DNA of 64,000 nucleotides. Origin: Thermocrinis jamiesonii (GTDB taxonomy: Bacteria > Aquificota > Aquificia > Aquificales > Aquificaceae). Under the pieces are notes generated by a model. The model was not told where the DNA came from, made no database searches, and saw only the letters and a program-made list of their open reading frames with translations. Both the position numbers and the translations under genes were made by a program. The DNA lies in assembly GCF_000702425.1 (NCBI RefSeq), contig NZ_JNIE01000002.1, positions 186,001 through 250,000 of the forward strand, given 5' to 3'. Shown here piece by piece: positions 4,599 through 61,119 of this stretch. Positions within the stretch are counted from its first letter, which is position 1. Each line of letters begins with the position of its first letter.

Positions 4599-5596
4599 GA
4601 GGCTGTCCGAAAAATCCTTCAGGCAGTGCTGAGTAGTTATAATAAAAACCTGATGTATGTAAGCGTGCAGTTTAAACTTCAGTTGAACAGTTCAGACAGA
4701 AAAAAGCTTTTGGAATTAATGCGTAAGCAATCATCAGCCATAAGGTCAGCTTATAAACTACTGAAAGACAAAAACTCCCATAGCCAAATATACCAAAATC
4801 TAAGACAACTGTTTCCTGACCTACCTACCAAATACATAGAATAGTAGAAATAGCAAAAGAGAAAGGAAAAGCTATAGCTATAGAAAACTTAAAGAAAGTC
4901 AATCGTGGTTATCGTGGGGATGGGAAAGCTAAGCTAAGAAAGAGACTACATCATTGGAACTTTAAGAGCTTGCTTTCAAAGATTGAAAGAACTGCAAAGC
5001 TAAGTGGATTAGAAGTTATCAAGGTAAATCCCGCTTTCACTTCTGTTATAGGAGCACTAAAATATGCACCACAGTTTGGGATAGACAAAGACATAGCAGG
5101 AACTTACGTGATAGGAAGAAGGGCATTAGGTTTTAAAGAAGAAGTTCCTGAGAACTATCTAAAACTTCTTTCATACAGGGAATACTTAGAGTATGCCATT
5201 TACACCTACACGGAAAAGGAAGAGGAGTTAAAGGAACAACTAAAGAAAGAGACAAACCAATACAAAAGAAATGCCATAAACTCTGAGCTAAAACAAGTTC
5301 AGAAAGCAAAAGGTTTGCTTTTAGAAAAACTTAAAAGCCTTCAGGACGAGCCGAGTTTCTGTGAGGCCGTCAACGGAAGGAATCCCAAGCGGGGAGAGAC
5401 TAAAAAAGTCTCTCAAAGTGCTTGGCAAGTTCTGAAGGTAGCCTTCCTCTTCCCTGTTCTTGGAAAGGTTATGTCGAGGGACCTTTCCCCTCTTCCGCCC
5501 TTACTGGTGGAAGCTCTGTGGGACAGGGTGAGGAGAAGGTCAGTTCCCTTAGAGGTTGGGGGGACGTCCCAATGAGAGATTTTTTTGAACAACCTC
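4599..5596 (+). mobile_element. TnpB element, internally deleted copy (copy A)
   Basis: The ends are inverted repeats of about 23 bp: GAGGCTGTCCGAAAAATCC at 4599 and, on the opposite strand, GAGGTTGTTCAAAAAAATC ending at 5596. Against the intact copy at 56051-57653 it keeps both ends but has lost roughly 200 codons of the tnpB middle. The right end stops one base before the clpX TGA (5597-5599), so nothing remains between clpX and the element. No clear target duplication is visible. The conserved right-end core (5527-5572) recurs at 56071-56121, 61029-61075 and 23056-23101. Confidence 0.8.
4653..5575 (+). pseudogene. tnpB: broken TnpB-family gene (internal deletion plus frame break)
   Basis: The ATG at 4653 aligns with the start of the intact TnpB, and codons 1 to about 63 follow it closely. 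At about 4840-4847 the sequence jumps to the region just before RuvC-II (EIAKEKGKAIAIENLKK), and stop codons follow the join. The downstream frame (from about 4847, open from 4970) holds RuvC-II and the RuvC-III region GIDKDIAGTYVIGRR through to the C-terminus. The RuvC-I aspartate region is deleted, so it cannot be an active nuclease. The remaining part is still highly similar to the intact copy, so the decay looks recent. Confidence 0.85.
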
Positions 5597-55995: not shown

Positions 55996-56053
55996 GAGCT
56001 GTTCGAAAAATGCCACCTTAGGAGAGTGATGGTATAAAAAAGATCCTTATGAG
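55996..56053 (+). repeat. isolated copy of the DDE insertion sequence left end
   Basis: These 58 bp match 57663-57720, the leader of the DDE transposase gene, with few differences; both read through CTTAGGAGAG-type sequence (here CCTTAGGAGAGTGATGG) to TCCTTATGAG. Here the copy is followed directly by the TnpB element rather than by a transposase gene, so only the end survives. Confidence 0.75.
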
Positions 56054-57653
56054 GTTGTTCTAAAAATCCCTCATCGGGGCGTCCCCCCAACCTCTAAGGG
56101 AACTAACCTTCTCCTCACCCTGTTCCACGCCCCTTCCACCAATAAAGGCTTCAGAGGAGAAAGGTCCCTTGGTAGAACCTTTCCAAGAACAGGGAAGAGG
56201 AAGGCGGACTTCAGAACTTGCCAAGCACTTTGAGAAGTAGTTTTAGCTACTTCTCCCTGCTTGGGATTCCTTCCGTTGACGGCCTCACAGGAACTTGGCT
56301 CGCCCTGAAGGCTTTTAAGCTTTTCTAAAAGCAAGTCCTTTGCTTTTTGAACTTGCTTTAACTCAGAGTTTATAGCATTTCTTTTGTATTGGTTAGTCTC
56401 TTTCTTAAACTGTTCTTTTAGCTCTTTTTCTTTCTCTTGGTAAGTGTAGATTGCATACTCTAAGTATTCCCTGTCTGAAAGAAGTTTAAGGTAATTCTCA
56501 GGGACTTCTTCCTTAAAGCCTAAAGCCCTTCTTCCTATCACGTAAGCGGATGCTATGTCTTTGTCTATCCCAAACTGTGGTGCATATTTTAGTGCTCCTA
56601 TAACAGAAGTGAAAGCGGGATTTACCTTGATAACTTCTATTCCACTTAGCTTTGCAGTTCTTTCAATCTTTGAAAGCAAGCTCTTAAAGTTCCAATGGTG
56701 TAGTCTCTTCCTTAGCTTAGCCTTCCCATCCCCACGATAACCACGATTGATTTTCTTTAAGTTTTCTATAGCTATTGCTTTTCCTTTCTCTTTTGCTATT
56801 TCTACTACCTTATGAGCTATTAGCCATTCCTGATATTCCTTTTTATTCTTTGAAAGTCCTATCAACTCGTGCAAGCTAATATTTTGATAGCTCAAAAGAT
56901 TTCCATCAGGGCTAACCTCTGCTAAAGCTAAATGCAGTGGGCTTGCGTTTGTGTCTATGGCTATTACTCCATACTCTTTGGTTAGCCATACTTCAGGTGT
57001 GGGAACTTCAAAAGAAACACTTCCATAAATCTCTCCATCCCTTAGCTTTAGCTCTACTGTGTAAGGGAAATAAACTTTACTTTGCCAGCTCGTTTGAAGC
57101 ATAGTCAAAAATGTGTTCCACTTATCCTTTGCGTTGCTTGGTTCCCTTAACACCTTTGCGTAAATGAACTTTCTCTCACCTACCGTAATCCTTAAAAGAA
57201 GCTCTCCGTTTATGCTTTCAAACCTTAAAAGTCTGTTTCCTTTATCTGCCTTTGAACCTACGCTTATTAAAGTCCCTTGTCTTAACTCTTTCCACATTCT
57301 TTTTAACTTTTCCCTACTTTTCTTGTCTCTGTTTTTACAGAGCTTTTCAAAAAGGGCTTTACCGCCAAACACCACTTTTTTGTCTGTTGGATATTGCTTT
57401 GCTTTGTAGATAGCAGAGTCTATGTACTTGGTAGGCAGGTCAGGAAAAAGCTGTCTTAGCTTTTGGTATATTTGGTTATGGGAGTTTTTGTCTTTCAGTA
57501 GTTTATAAGCTGACCTTATAGCGGATGATTGCTTACGCATTAATTCCAAAAGCTTTTTTCTGTCGGAACTGTTCAACTGAAGTTTAAACTGCACGCCTAC
57601 ATACATCTTAGGCTTTTATTATAACTACCTTGAGGGGTTTTTAGAACAATCTC
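56051..57653 (-). mobile_element. intact TnpB element (copy B) with terminal inverted repeats
   Basis: The ends are GAGGTTGTTCTAAAAATCCC at 56051 and, on the other strand, GAGATTGTTCTAAAAACCCC ending at 57653. Outside them GATCCTTAT is also repeated in inverted form, so the total inverted repeat is 31 bp (56042-56072/57632-57662). The element carries one gene, tnpB, and no TnpA. Its ends resemble the first 16 bp of the neighbouring DDE element (GAGGTTGTTCGAAAAA at 57663). The right-end core (56071-56121) is shared with all relics in the window. Confidence 0.8.
56071..57606 (-). CDS. tnpB: TnpB-family RNA-guided nuclease, variant without zinc ribbon
   Basis: A 511-residue TnpB-related protein. 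The RuvC acidic residues are all present: Asp218 (IAIDTNASPLHLALAE), Glu281 (AIAIENLKK), and Asp350 (GIDKDIASAYVIGRR). The zinc ribbon usually found before RuvC-III is missing: no Cys pair lies between 281 and 350. The C-terminal part after 370 is a long charged helix followed by a Cys-containing tail (CEAVNGRNP). TnpB proteins of IS200/IS605 use an RNA from the element right end to cut DNA. This one should be catalytically competent. Confidence 0.9.
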   Translation of the reverse strand: MYVGVQFKLQLNSSDRKKLLELMRKQSSAIRSAYKLLKDKNSHNQIYQKLRQLFPDLPTKYIDSAIYKAKQYPTDKKVVFGGKALFEKLCKNRDKKSREKLKRMWKELRQGTLISVGSKADKGNRLLRFESINGELLLRITVGERKFIYAKVLREPSNAKDKWNTFLTMLQTSWQSKVYFPYTVELKLRDGEIYGSVSFEVPTPEVWLTKEYGVIAIDTNASPLHLALAEVSPDGNLLSYQNISLHELIGLSKNKKEYQEWLIAHKVVEIAKEKGKAIAIENLKKINRGYRGDGKAKLRKRLHHWNFKSLLSKIERTAKLSGIEVIKVNPAFTSVIGALKYAPQFGIDKDIASAYVIGRRALGFKEEVPENYLKLLSDREYLEYAIYTYQEKEKELKEQFKKETNQYKRNAINSELKQVQKAKDLLLEKLKSLQGEPSSCEAVNGRNPKQGEVAKTTSQSAWQVLKSAFLFPVLGKVLPRDLSPLKPLLVEGAWNRVRRRLVPLEVGGTPR

Positions 57654-57662
57654 ATAAGGATC

Positions 57663-58341
57663 GAGGTTGTTCGAAAAAAGCCACTTTAGGAGAGTTATGG
57701 TATAAAAAAATCCTTATGAGAAGAAGCAGGTTACCTTTGAAAAAACTTTATGCCCTTACCAAACACATACTTGAAAATATAAACCTAAACCAAGTAAAAA
57801 AGAAAGGAAGACCTAAAAAATACGAAGAGCGGTTTATAATTGCCCTGTGGCTTTTCCAAATACTCAACAAAAGATCTTACAGAGAAACCTTTGAAACCGC
57901 TAAAAATGAAAACTTTGATGTCCCATCTCTTAGCAACTACCACTATAGAGTTAAACAGTTAGATGAAAAGCTCCTAAGGCTCATCCTGAAAGAACGTGCC
58001 AAACTGCTCCTTGAAGATAAACAAATCAAATGTTAAATAGCTGATACGGAAGGCTTTGGCTTTGGAGGCAAATACAACATTAACTGGAAAAGAGGAACGC
58101 AAATAAAAACTGTTCAGGCTCACGTTAGGCTTGAAGTGGTAAAAAGGTTGGCTCAAGCTTTAATCTTTTGAGAGAGGACTTAGCAAGGAAGACGGCTATT
58201 GCCTGTGCTATTCTTTGGAACTTTTGGCTACTTGTAATCTATTTATTTTTGTTTGCCTTATCCACTGCCTTATGCTTTAACCTATTCTTAAGGTATTCGG
58301 TGGATTTTTCAAACAGCCTTAGATCCTTATTGACTTTTTGA
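57663..58341 (+). mobile_element. decayed DDE-type insertion sequence
   Basis: It begins GAGGTTGTTCGAAAAA, carries a transposase relic, and has no matching right end near 58350; the right end seems lost. The relic has one in-frame stop (58034-58036) and a later frame break with loss of the middle. The left end is also duplicated at 55996-56053. Confidence 0.75.
57716..58341 (+). pseudogene. DDE transposase relic (IS4/IS5-like)
   Basis: The first 106 codons from ATG 57716 contain KKGRPKKYEERFIIALWLF and SLSNYHYRVKQLDEKLLR. After the TAA at 58034 the same frame continues with IADTEGFGFGGKYN, where the Asp is the first DDE residue. In a shifted frame LREDLARKTAIACAILWN through to a TGA at 58339-58341 gives the transposase C-terminus. 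The catalytic middle is deleted, so it is dead. Confidence 0.8.
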
Positions 58342-60933: not shown

Positions 60934-61096
60934 GCAGTGCTGAGTAGTTATAATAAAAACCTGATGTATTTAAGCTTGCAGTTCAAACTCCAGCTGAACA
61001 GTCCAGGCAGAAAAAAGCTCTTTCAGCTAAGAGGAATAGGTTAGTTCCCTTAGAGGTTGGGGGACGTTTCAATGAGGGGTTTTGAAAAGCAACCTC
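60934..61096 (+). mobile_element. 163-bp deletion derivative of the TnpB element (copy C)
   Basis: The first 95 bp match the tnpB start region of copy A (CAGTGCTGAGTAGTTATAAT, then the start codon and about 22 codons). The sequence then jumps, at about 61017-61030, to the right-end core (GTTAGTTCCCTTAGAGG) and ends in the inverted repeat CAACCTC at 61096. The left inverted repeat is no longer visible. It fills most of the gap between the DsbC-like gene and murJ. Confidence 0.75.
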
Positions 61097-61119
61097 AGTT
61101 AGTATAATAGACTGGAAAG

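Follow-up and report, generated by a model that had tools for sequence, protein, structure and literature searches.

The 64-kb window analysed here (G000:C2:186001-250000) comes from Thermocrinis jamiesonii, a member of the Aquificaceae, bacteria of hot springs, and all coordinates are positions in it; compared genomes carry codes of the G000 series, G000 being the window's own genome. The window contains a cassette in which a tnpB gene and an overlapping predicted omegaRNA lie between terminal inverted repeats resembling the ends of a neighbouring DDE insertion sequence (Table 1). The gene is enclosed by an inverted repeat of 32 nt (56042-56073 and 57631-57662; 94% complementary, arms 1557 nt apart), which was by far the strongest inverted pair in a 7-kb region. 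A first-pass annotation had taken the full repeat as the ends of the element. The repeat proved real, while comparison with the ends of other copies placed the borders at 56051 and 57653, inside the 32-bp repeat, an outcome that the annotation had listed as counting against its proposal and that was partly borne out. The inner ~23 bp are the element's part, with terminal inverted repeats of ~20 bp, and the outer 9 bp (GATCCTTAT / ATAAGGATC) are flanking target DNA. Their inverted orientation results from rearrangement of the locus, which is a cluster: a 10-bp direct repeat brackets the TnpB cassette and a DDE remnant together, an inverted copy lies between the two elements, and no model is claimed for the order of events. 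The DDE copy begins GAGGTTGTTCGAAAAAAGCC, matching the cassette ends as the annotation had described. This remnant is dead: its reading frame stops at a TAA after codon 106, and an internal part has been deleted. Several further TnpB cassette copies, including full, partial and internally deleted ones, are present in G000.

Table 1. Features of the TnpB cassette locus and related elements in the window
Feature	Position	Strand	Details	Source
TnpB cassette, whole element	56051..57653	minus	1603 bp	Borders from other copies, in this and sister genomes
tnpB open reading frame	56071..57606	minus	511 aa; RuvC D218, E281, D350; no CxxC zinc ribbon	Open reading frame list, family match, alignment
Predicted omegaRNA scaffold	56068..56313	minus	Three stem-loop domains and a small terminal hairpin; overlaps tnpB 3' end, stops at inverted repeat	
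Right terminal inverted repeat (TnpB orientation)	56051..56073		Plus-strand sequence GAGGTTGTTCTAAAAATCCCTCA	Repeat search and copies
Left terminal inverted repeat (TnpB orientation)	57631..57653		Minus-strand sequence GAGATTGTTCTAAAAACCCCTCA	Repeat search and copies
Flanking target sequence, left copy of 10-bp direct repeat	56041..56050		AGATCCTTAT	Sequence
Inverted copy of flanking target sequence	57654..57662		ATAAGGATC; between TnpB cassette and DDE remnant, outside the cassette	Sequence
Right copy of 10-bp direct repeat	58321..58330		AGATCCTTAT, then TGACTT (TTGACT target motif)	Sequence
Decayed DDE insertion sequence	57663..58320	plus	Ends match cassette; transposase reading frame broken by TAA, internally deleted	
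Fragment of a second, partial DDE left end	55996..56040	plus		Repeat search
Second TnpB cassette copy (L113)	4599..5596	plus	Internally deleted	
Small remnant of third TnpB cassette copy	60944..61097		~154 bp; G000:C2:246944-247097	

The window TnpB matched the TnpB-type family TIGR01766 at 67 bits (cut-off 32) and reached only 45.5 bits against the guided_TnpB model NF040570 (cut-off 100). The RuvC triad was invariant in 20/20 copies, and tnpB is under strong purifying selection, with a median ratio of nonsynonymous to synonymous substitution rates (dN/dS) of 0.10 over codons 1-430. No CxxC of a C4 zinc ribbon occurred in any of 53 TnpB relatives, and the missing ribbon is a clade trait because the relatives with IS605-like ends are without it as well. 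A peptide-pattern scan of genome contigs with TnpB gave no match.

A structured RNA that is conserved and covarying overlaps the 3' end of tnpB. The last ~245 nt of the cassette fold stably (z-score of -4.3 for the window sequence), and in a structure alignment of 21 sequences 96.9% of the cells were paired, dropping to 39-57% when the structure was slid along the alignment. Two-sided changes numbered 26 compared with 10.2 in shuffles, while further pair types, one of five covariation measures, did not rise above the shuffles. Elements of ~307 bp that lack an open reading frame (ORF) were found in six genomes; these miniatures retain the omegaRNA architecture, with a folding z-score of -6.1, and offer the stronger support for the structure because the RNA region in the cassette is itself coding. 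Promoter-like TTGAAA/TATAAT boxes were read by eye at their left end. No Rfam family matched the predicted omegaRNA.

Cassette copies in seven genomes have the common ends GAGGYTGTTYNAAAAA, and related copies with these ends occur in Thermocrinis, Hydrogenobacter and other Aquificaceae. Identity to the window TnpB was 65-75% in G001 (Thermocrinis sp. Bin P10, of the same genus as the window genome), G002, G006 and G012, ~55% in G015 and G022 and ~39% in G029, and all three groups are bounded by inverted repeats. Target duplications of 9-13 bp were identified at 23 of 45 elements with paired ends, nineteen of them perfect, where shuffled flanks would give a mean of 0.03; the ORF-less derivatives and three DDE elements are counted among the 45, and some of the flanking sequences were added manually.

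An intact DDE element with ends matching those of the cassette (GAGGCTGTTCTAAAAATAATGC / GGTAGATTTTTAAAACAGCCTC) was identified in G001 (G001:C50). It is 934 bp long, is flanked by a perfect 10-bp target duplication (GCGAAACAGT) and has the same target preference as the cassettes, TTGNCA. Its transposase of 278 aa matched PF01609 (DDE_Tnp_1) at 47.8 bits against a cut-off of 23, as expected of the IS4/IS5 superfamily, and reached none of the NCBIfam equivalog cut-offs for IS4 or IS5, scoring 68.4 bits against an IS5 cut-off of 140. The partner transposase is split over contig ends in G012 and broken in G000. The Y1 transposase TnpA (PF01797) was absent from G000 and from every genome with inverted-repeat cassettes, and none lies beside TnpB, in agreement with the first-pass annotation.

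Apparent DDE homologues in G015, G022, G028 and G034 correspond to a stand-alone chromosomal domain and not to transposons. L137, L138, L139 and L141 encode a conserved chromosomal protein of ~140 aa whose resemblance to the DDE transposase is confined to the N-terminal domain of the latter; its gene neighbourhood is the same in four genomes, and it is possibly a domesticated domain. A 1.26-kb element with matching ends in G029 (L320; G029:C1:1260427-1261691) was discarded as the missing partner, being an inverted-repeat element with a different transposase nested within it.

The motif TTGNCA adjoins the target duplication at the left ends of the TnpB cassettes. It lies beside DDE-derived miniature elements too, as well as beside DDE copies from G112, G009 and G040, and is therefore a preference of the transposase. 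In an unevenly gathered and partly hand-counted sample from Thermocrinis and Hydrogenobacter, TnpB and omegaRNA cassettes had the motif at 31 of 51 left ends and 3 of 61 right ends, with 5% expected by chance. DDE elements and their derivatives had it on either side (5/13 left, 8/18 right), counts adjusted by hand, with one weak match taken out and new ends from G012 as well as an unclassified left end put in; the difference in side bias from the cassettes gave a Fisher p of 0.0005. Elements of the PF01609 type in G112 (L254-L269), G009 (L270-L272) and G040 (L274-L279) likewise favour TTGNCA beside the target duplication. As TTGACA is the -35 box, such insertions may often lie just outside promoters. 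In G006 a 274-bp element (L171) unites a TnpB right end with a DDE right end; it has no target duplication and may have arisen by recombination.

We interpret the cassette as a non-autonomous passenger that is moved in trans by a PF01609 transposase and whose TnpB and omegaRNA probably still act as an RNA-guided nuclease, a reading to which we assign a probability of about 0.8. The tnpB gene and its overlapping omegaRNA, enclosed by the inverted repeats that end a PF01609 insertion sequence, would be cut and pasted by the transposase of a separate element, which would leave a duplication of 9-13 bp beside TTGNCA. TnpB and the omegaRNA are maintained by selection; the guide would come from the DNA next to the right end, and the ORF-less derivatives may supply guides in trans. 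The mobilisation in trans suggested by the first-pass annotation is well supported by the shared ends, the duplications and the target preference. Several observations weigh against this interpretation. Every DDE copy found in the window's own genome is broken; no PF01609 transposase was found in G002, G004, G015, G022 and G029, which carry cassettes or remnants; about half of the copies are without a target duplication; the ends of the G029 lineage are distinct and its origin is separate; and ~120 nt that make up most of the right end in the IS605-like relatives are absent from the cassette, which may leave the RNA unable to guide cutting. The annotation had named copies in genomes lacking any DDE element with these ends as counting against its proposal, which the five genomes partly bear out, with perfect duplications in G015, G022 and G029. 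These duplications suggest recent transposase loss or an unsampled source and are not a refutation of DDE-type movement. Present-day dependence of the cassettes on a PF01609 transposase is unproven and is weakened by the genomes without one.

As an extension of the passenger interpretation, TTGNCA could double as the transposon-associated motif (TAM) of TnpB. For insertions oriented so that it lies directly 5' of DNA that matches the guide, it would allow empty sites to be re-cut, and RNA-guided retention would then filter which insertions persist. We regard this extension as tentative and somewhat more likely to be wrong than right. At an empty site TTGNCA directly precedes the duplicated bases, the position required of a TAM for a guide that begins at the right end, and ISDra2 has the similar TAM TTGAT (PMC8612924). 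The one-sided motif of the cassettes fits TAM-dependent retention, but also unequal transposon ends, since polarity is seen by itself in some DDE lineages, and the bias comes from the uneven, partly hand-counted sample described above. The DDE family itself favours TTGNCA, also in lineages unlinked to TnpB (G112, G009), the IS605-like relatives appear to use GGAGG, and one G029 cassette has TTGNCA on the right-end side. The motif as an outright TAM of TnpB was downgraded because DDE-only insertions have it too, as do lineages that lack TnpB cassettes. The structured RNA, the intact RuvC triad and the well-placed TAM-like motif make it plausible that, as proposed earlier, TnpB cutting keeps the element in place, but they do not demonstrate it, as the transposase itself favours that motif. 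A full division of labour, in which the transposase targets TTGNCA, the same TTGNCA serves as TAM, lost insertions of the right orientation are re-cut and copied back and the ORF-less omegaRNA elements use the same TnpB, appears less likely than not. That the terminal repeat itself is the guide (about 17 nt, with a GAGG resembling the GGAGG of the IS605-like relatives) was considered; no evidence for it was found.

The absence of TnpA and of a zinc ribbon and the loss of much of the IS605-like right end could also mean that TnpB has no RNA-guided function and simply hitch-hikes, as an old IS605-type element that came to lie between DDE ends and now persists only as filler. A dN/dS of ~0.1, a catalytic triad intact in all full copies and an RNA structure retained even in the ORF-less derivatives make this improbable, and the missing zinc ribbon is a trait of the whole clade. 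We give little credence to movement without the DDE transposase, by another transposase family or by TnpB itself. At least five closely similar copies in G029, together with the perfect duplications in G015, G022 and G029 and the absence of PF01609 from these essentially complete genomes, would fit such a route, but the ends, duplication length and target preference all coincide with those of the DDE element, an autonomous partner is often lost after its non-autonomous copies have spread, and divergent members or plasmids can escape a PF01609 search. An ordinary IS200/IS605 element with chance inverted repeats, to which the TIGR01766 family match would point, is virtually untenable, being refuted by target duplications far above those of shuffled flanks, by repeats conserved across genomes and by the lack of both a TnpA and an IS605-like right end.

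TnpB relatives from the same order with IS605-like ends (44-48% identity) have GGAGG before their insertion point, and their right end is longer and contains a subterminal hairpin. These elements (L034, L144-L161) lie directly after GGAGG at Shine-Dalgarno sites, a few bases upstream of start codons. A tree of 53 TnpB proteins required at least two changes between the inverted-repeat and IS605-like types, the latter assigned from the ends alone, and set G029 apart from the main group, although the method warns of long branches there. DDE-borne TnpB may have been captured at least twice in Aquificaceae, or the tree may reflect one gain and one loss. TnpB relatives that are 37-42% identical occur in the Thermus phages phiLo (MH673673.1) and Lalka8/27a/27b.

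The cassette shares with TnpB elements of the IS200/IS605 and IS607 types, such as ISDra2, the RuvC D-E-D residues and a right-end RNA overlapping the 3' end of tnpB, and differs in its inverted repeats, target duplications, shortened right end, DDE-shared ends and lack of a Y1 (HuH) TnpA. It resembles a non-autonomous DDE cassette in having ends shared with the autonomous G001:C50 element and duplications of 9-13 bp against 10 bp for that element. In mobile insertion cassettes of the MIC231 type, and in transporter insertion sequences, a passenger gene is likewise bounded by DDE insertion sequence ends with no transposase inside; here, however, the passenger encodes an RNA-guided nuclease and brings its own RNA. 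Palindrome-associated transposable elements (PATEs) are omegaRNA-only derivatives of IS605 and resemble the ORF-less elements in having kept the omegaRNA, whereas the latter have DDE inverted repeats and target duplications. RNA-guided cleavage by TnpB and a model for its role in retention have been described (PMC8612924). Fanzor1 is carried in eukaryotic and viral DDE transposons, including the IS4-type ISvEsV1_1 (Bao and Jurka 2013, PMC3627910; PMC10711439). There too a TnpB-like nuclease is the passenger of a DDE transposon with terminal inverted repeats and target duplications, but the hosts are eukaryotes and their viruses and the transposase is often in the same element, whereas the present system is bacterial and has transposase and TnpB on separate elements. 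A literature search, with many journals outside its coverage, returned no published DDE-borne TnpB from a prokaryote.

Prokaryotic TnpB has been described with Y1 (IS605) or serine (IS607) transposases, and the cassettes indicate that an RNA-guided nuclease can apparently ride a transposon of another type. A bacterial DDE-borne TnpB would be the prokaryotic counterpart of eukaryotic Fanzor in DDE transposons. The system would allow a test of how a transposon benefits from an RNA-guided nuclease when its own excision already produces a double-strand break, and the ORF-less omegaRNA elements represent a natural guide-RNA library in a thermophile.
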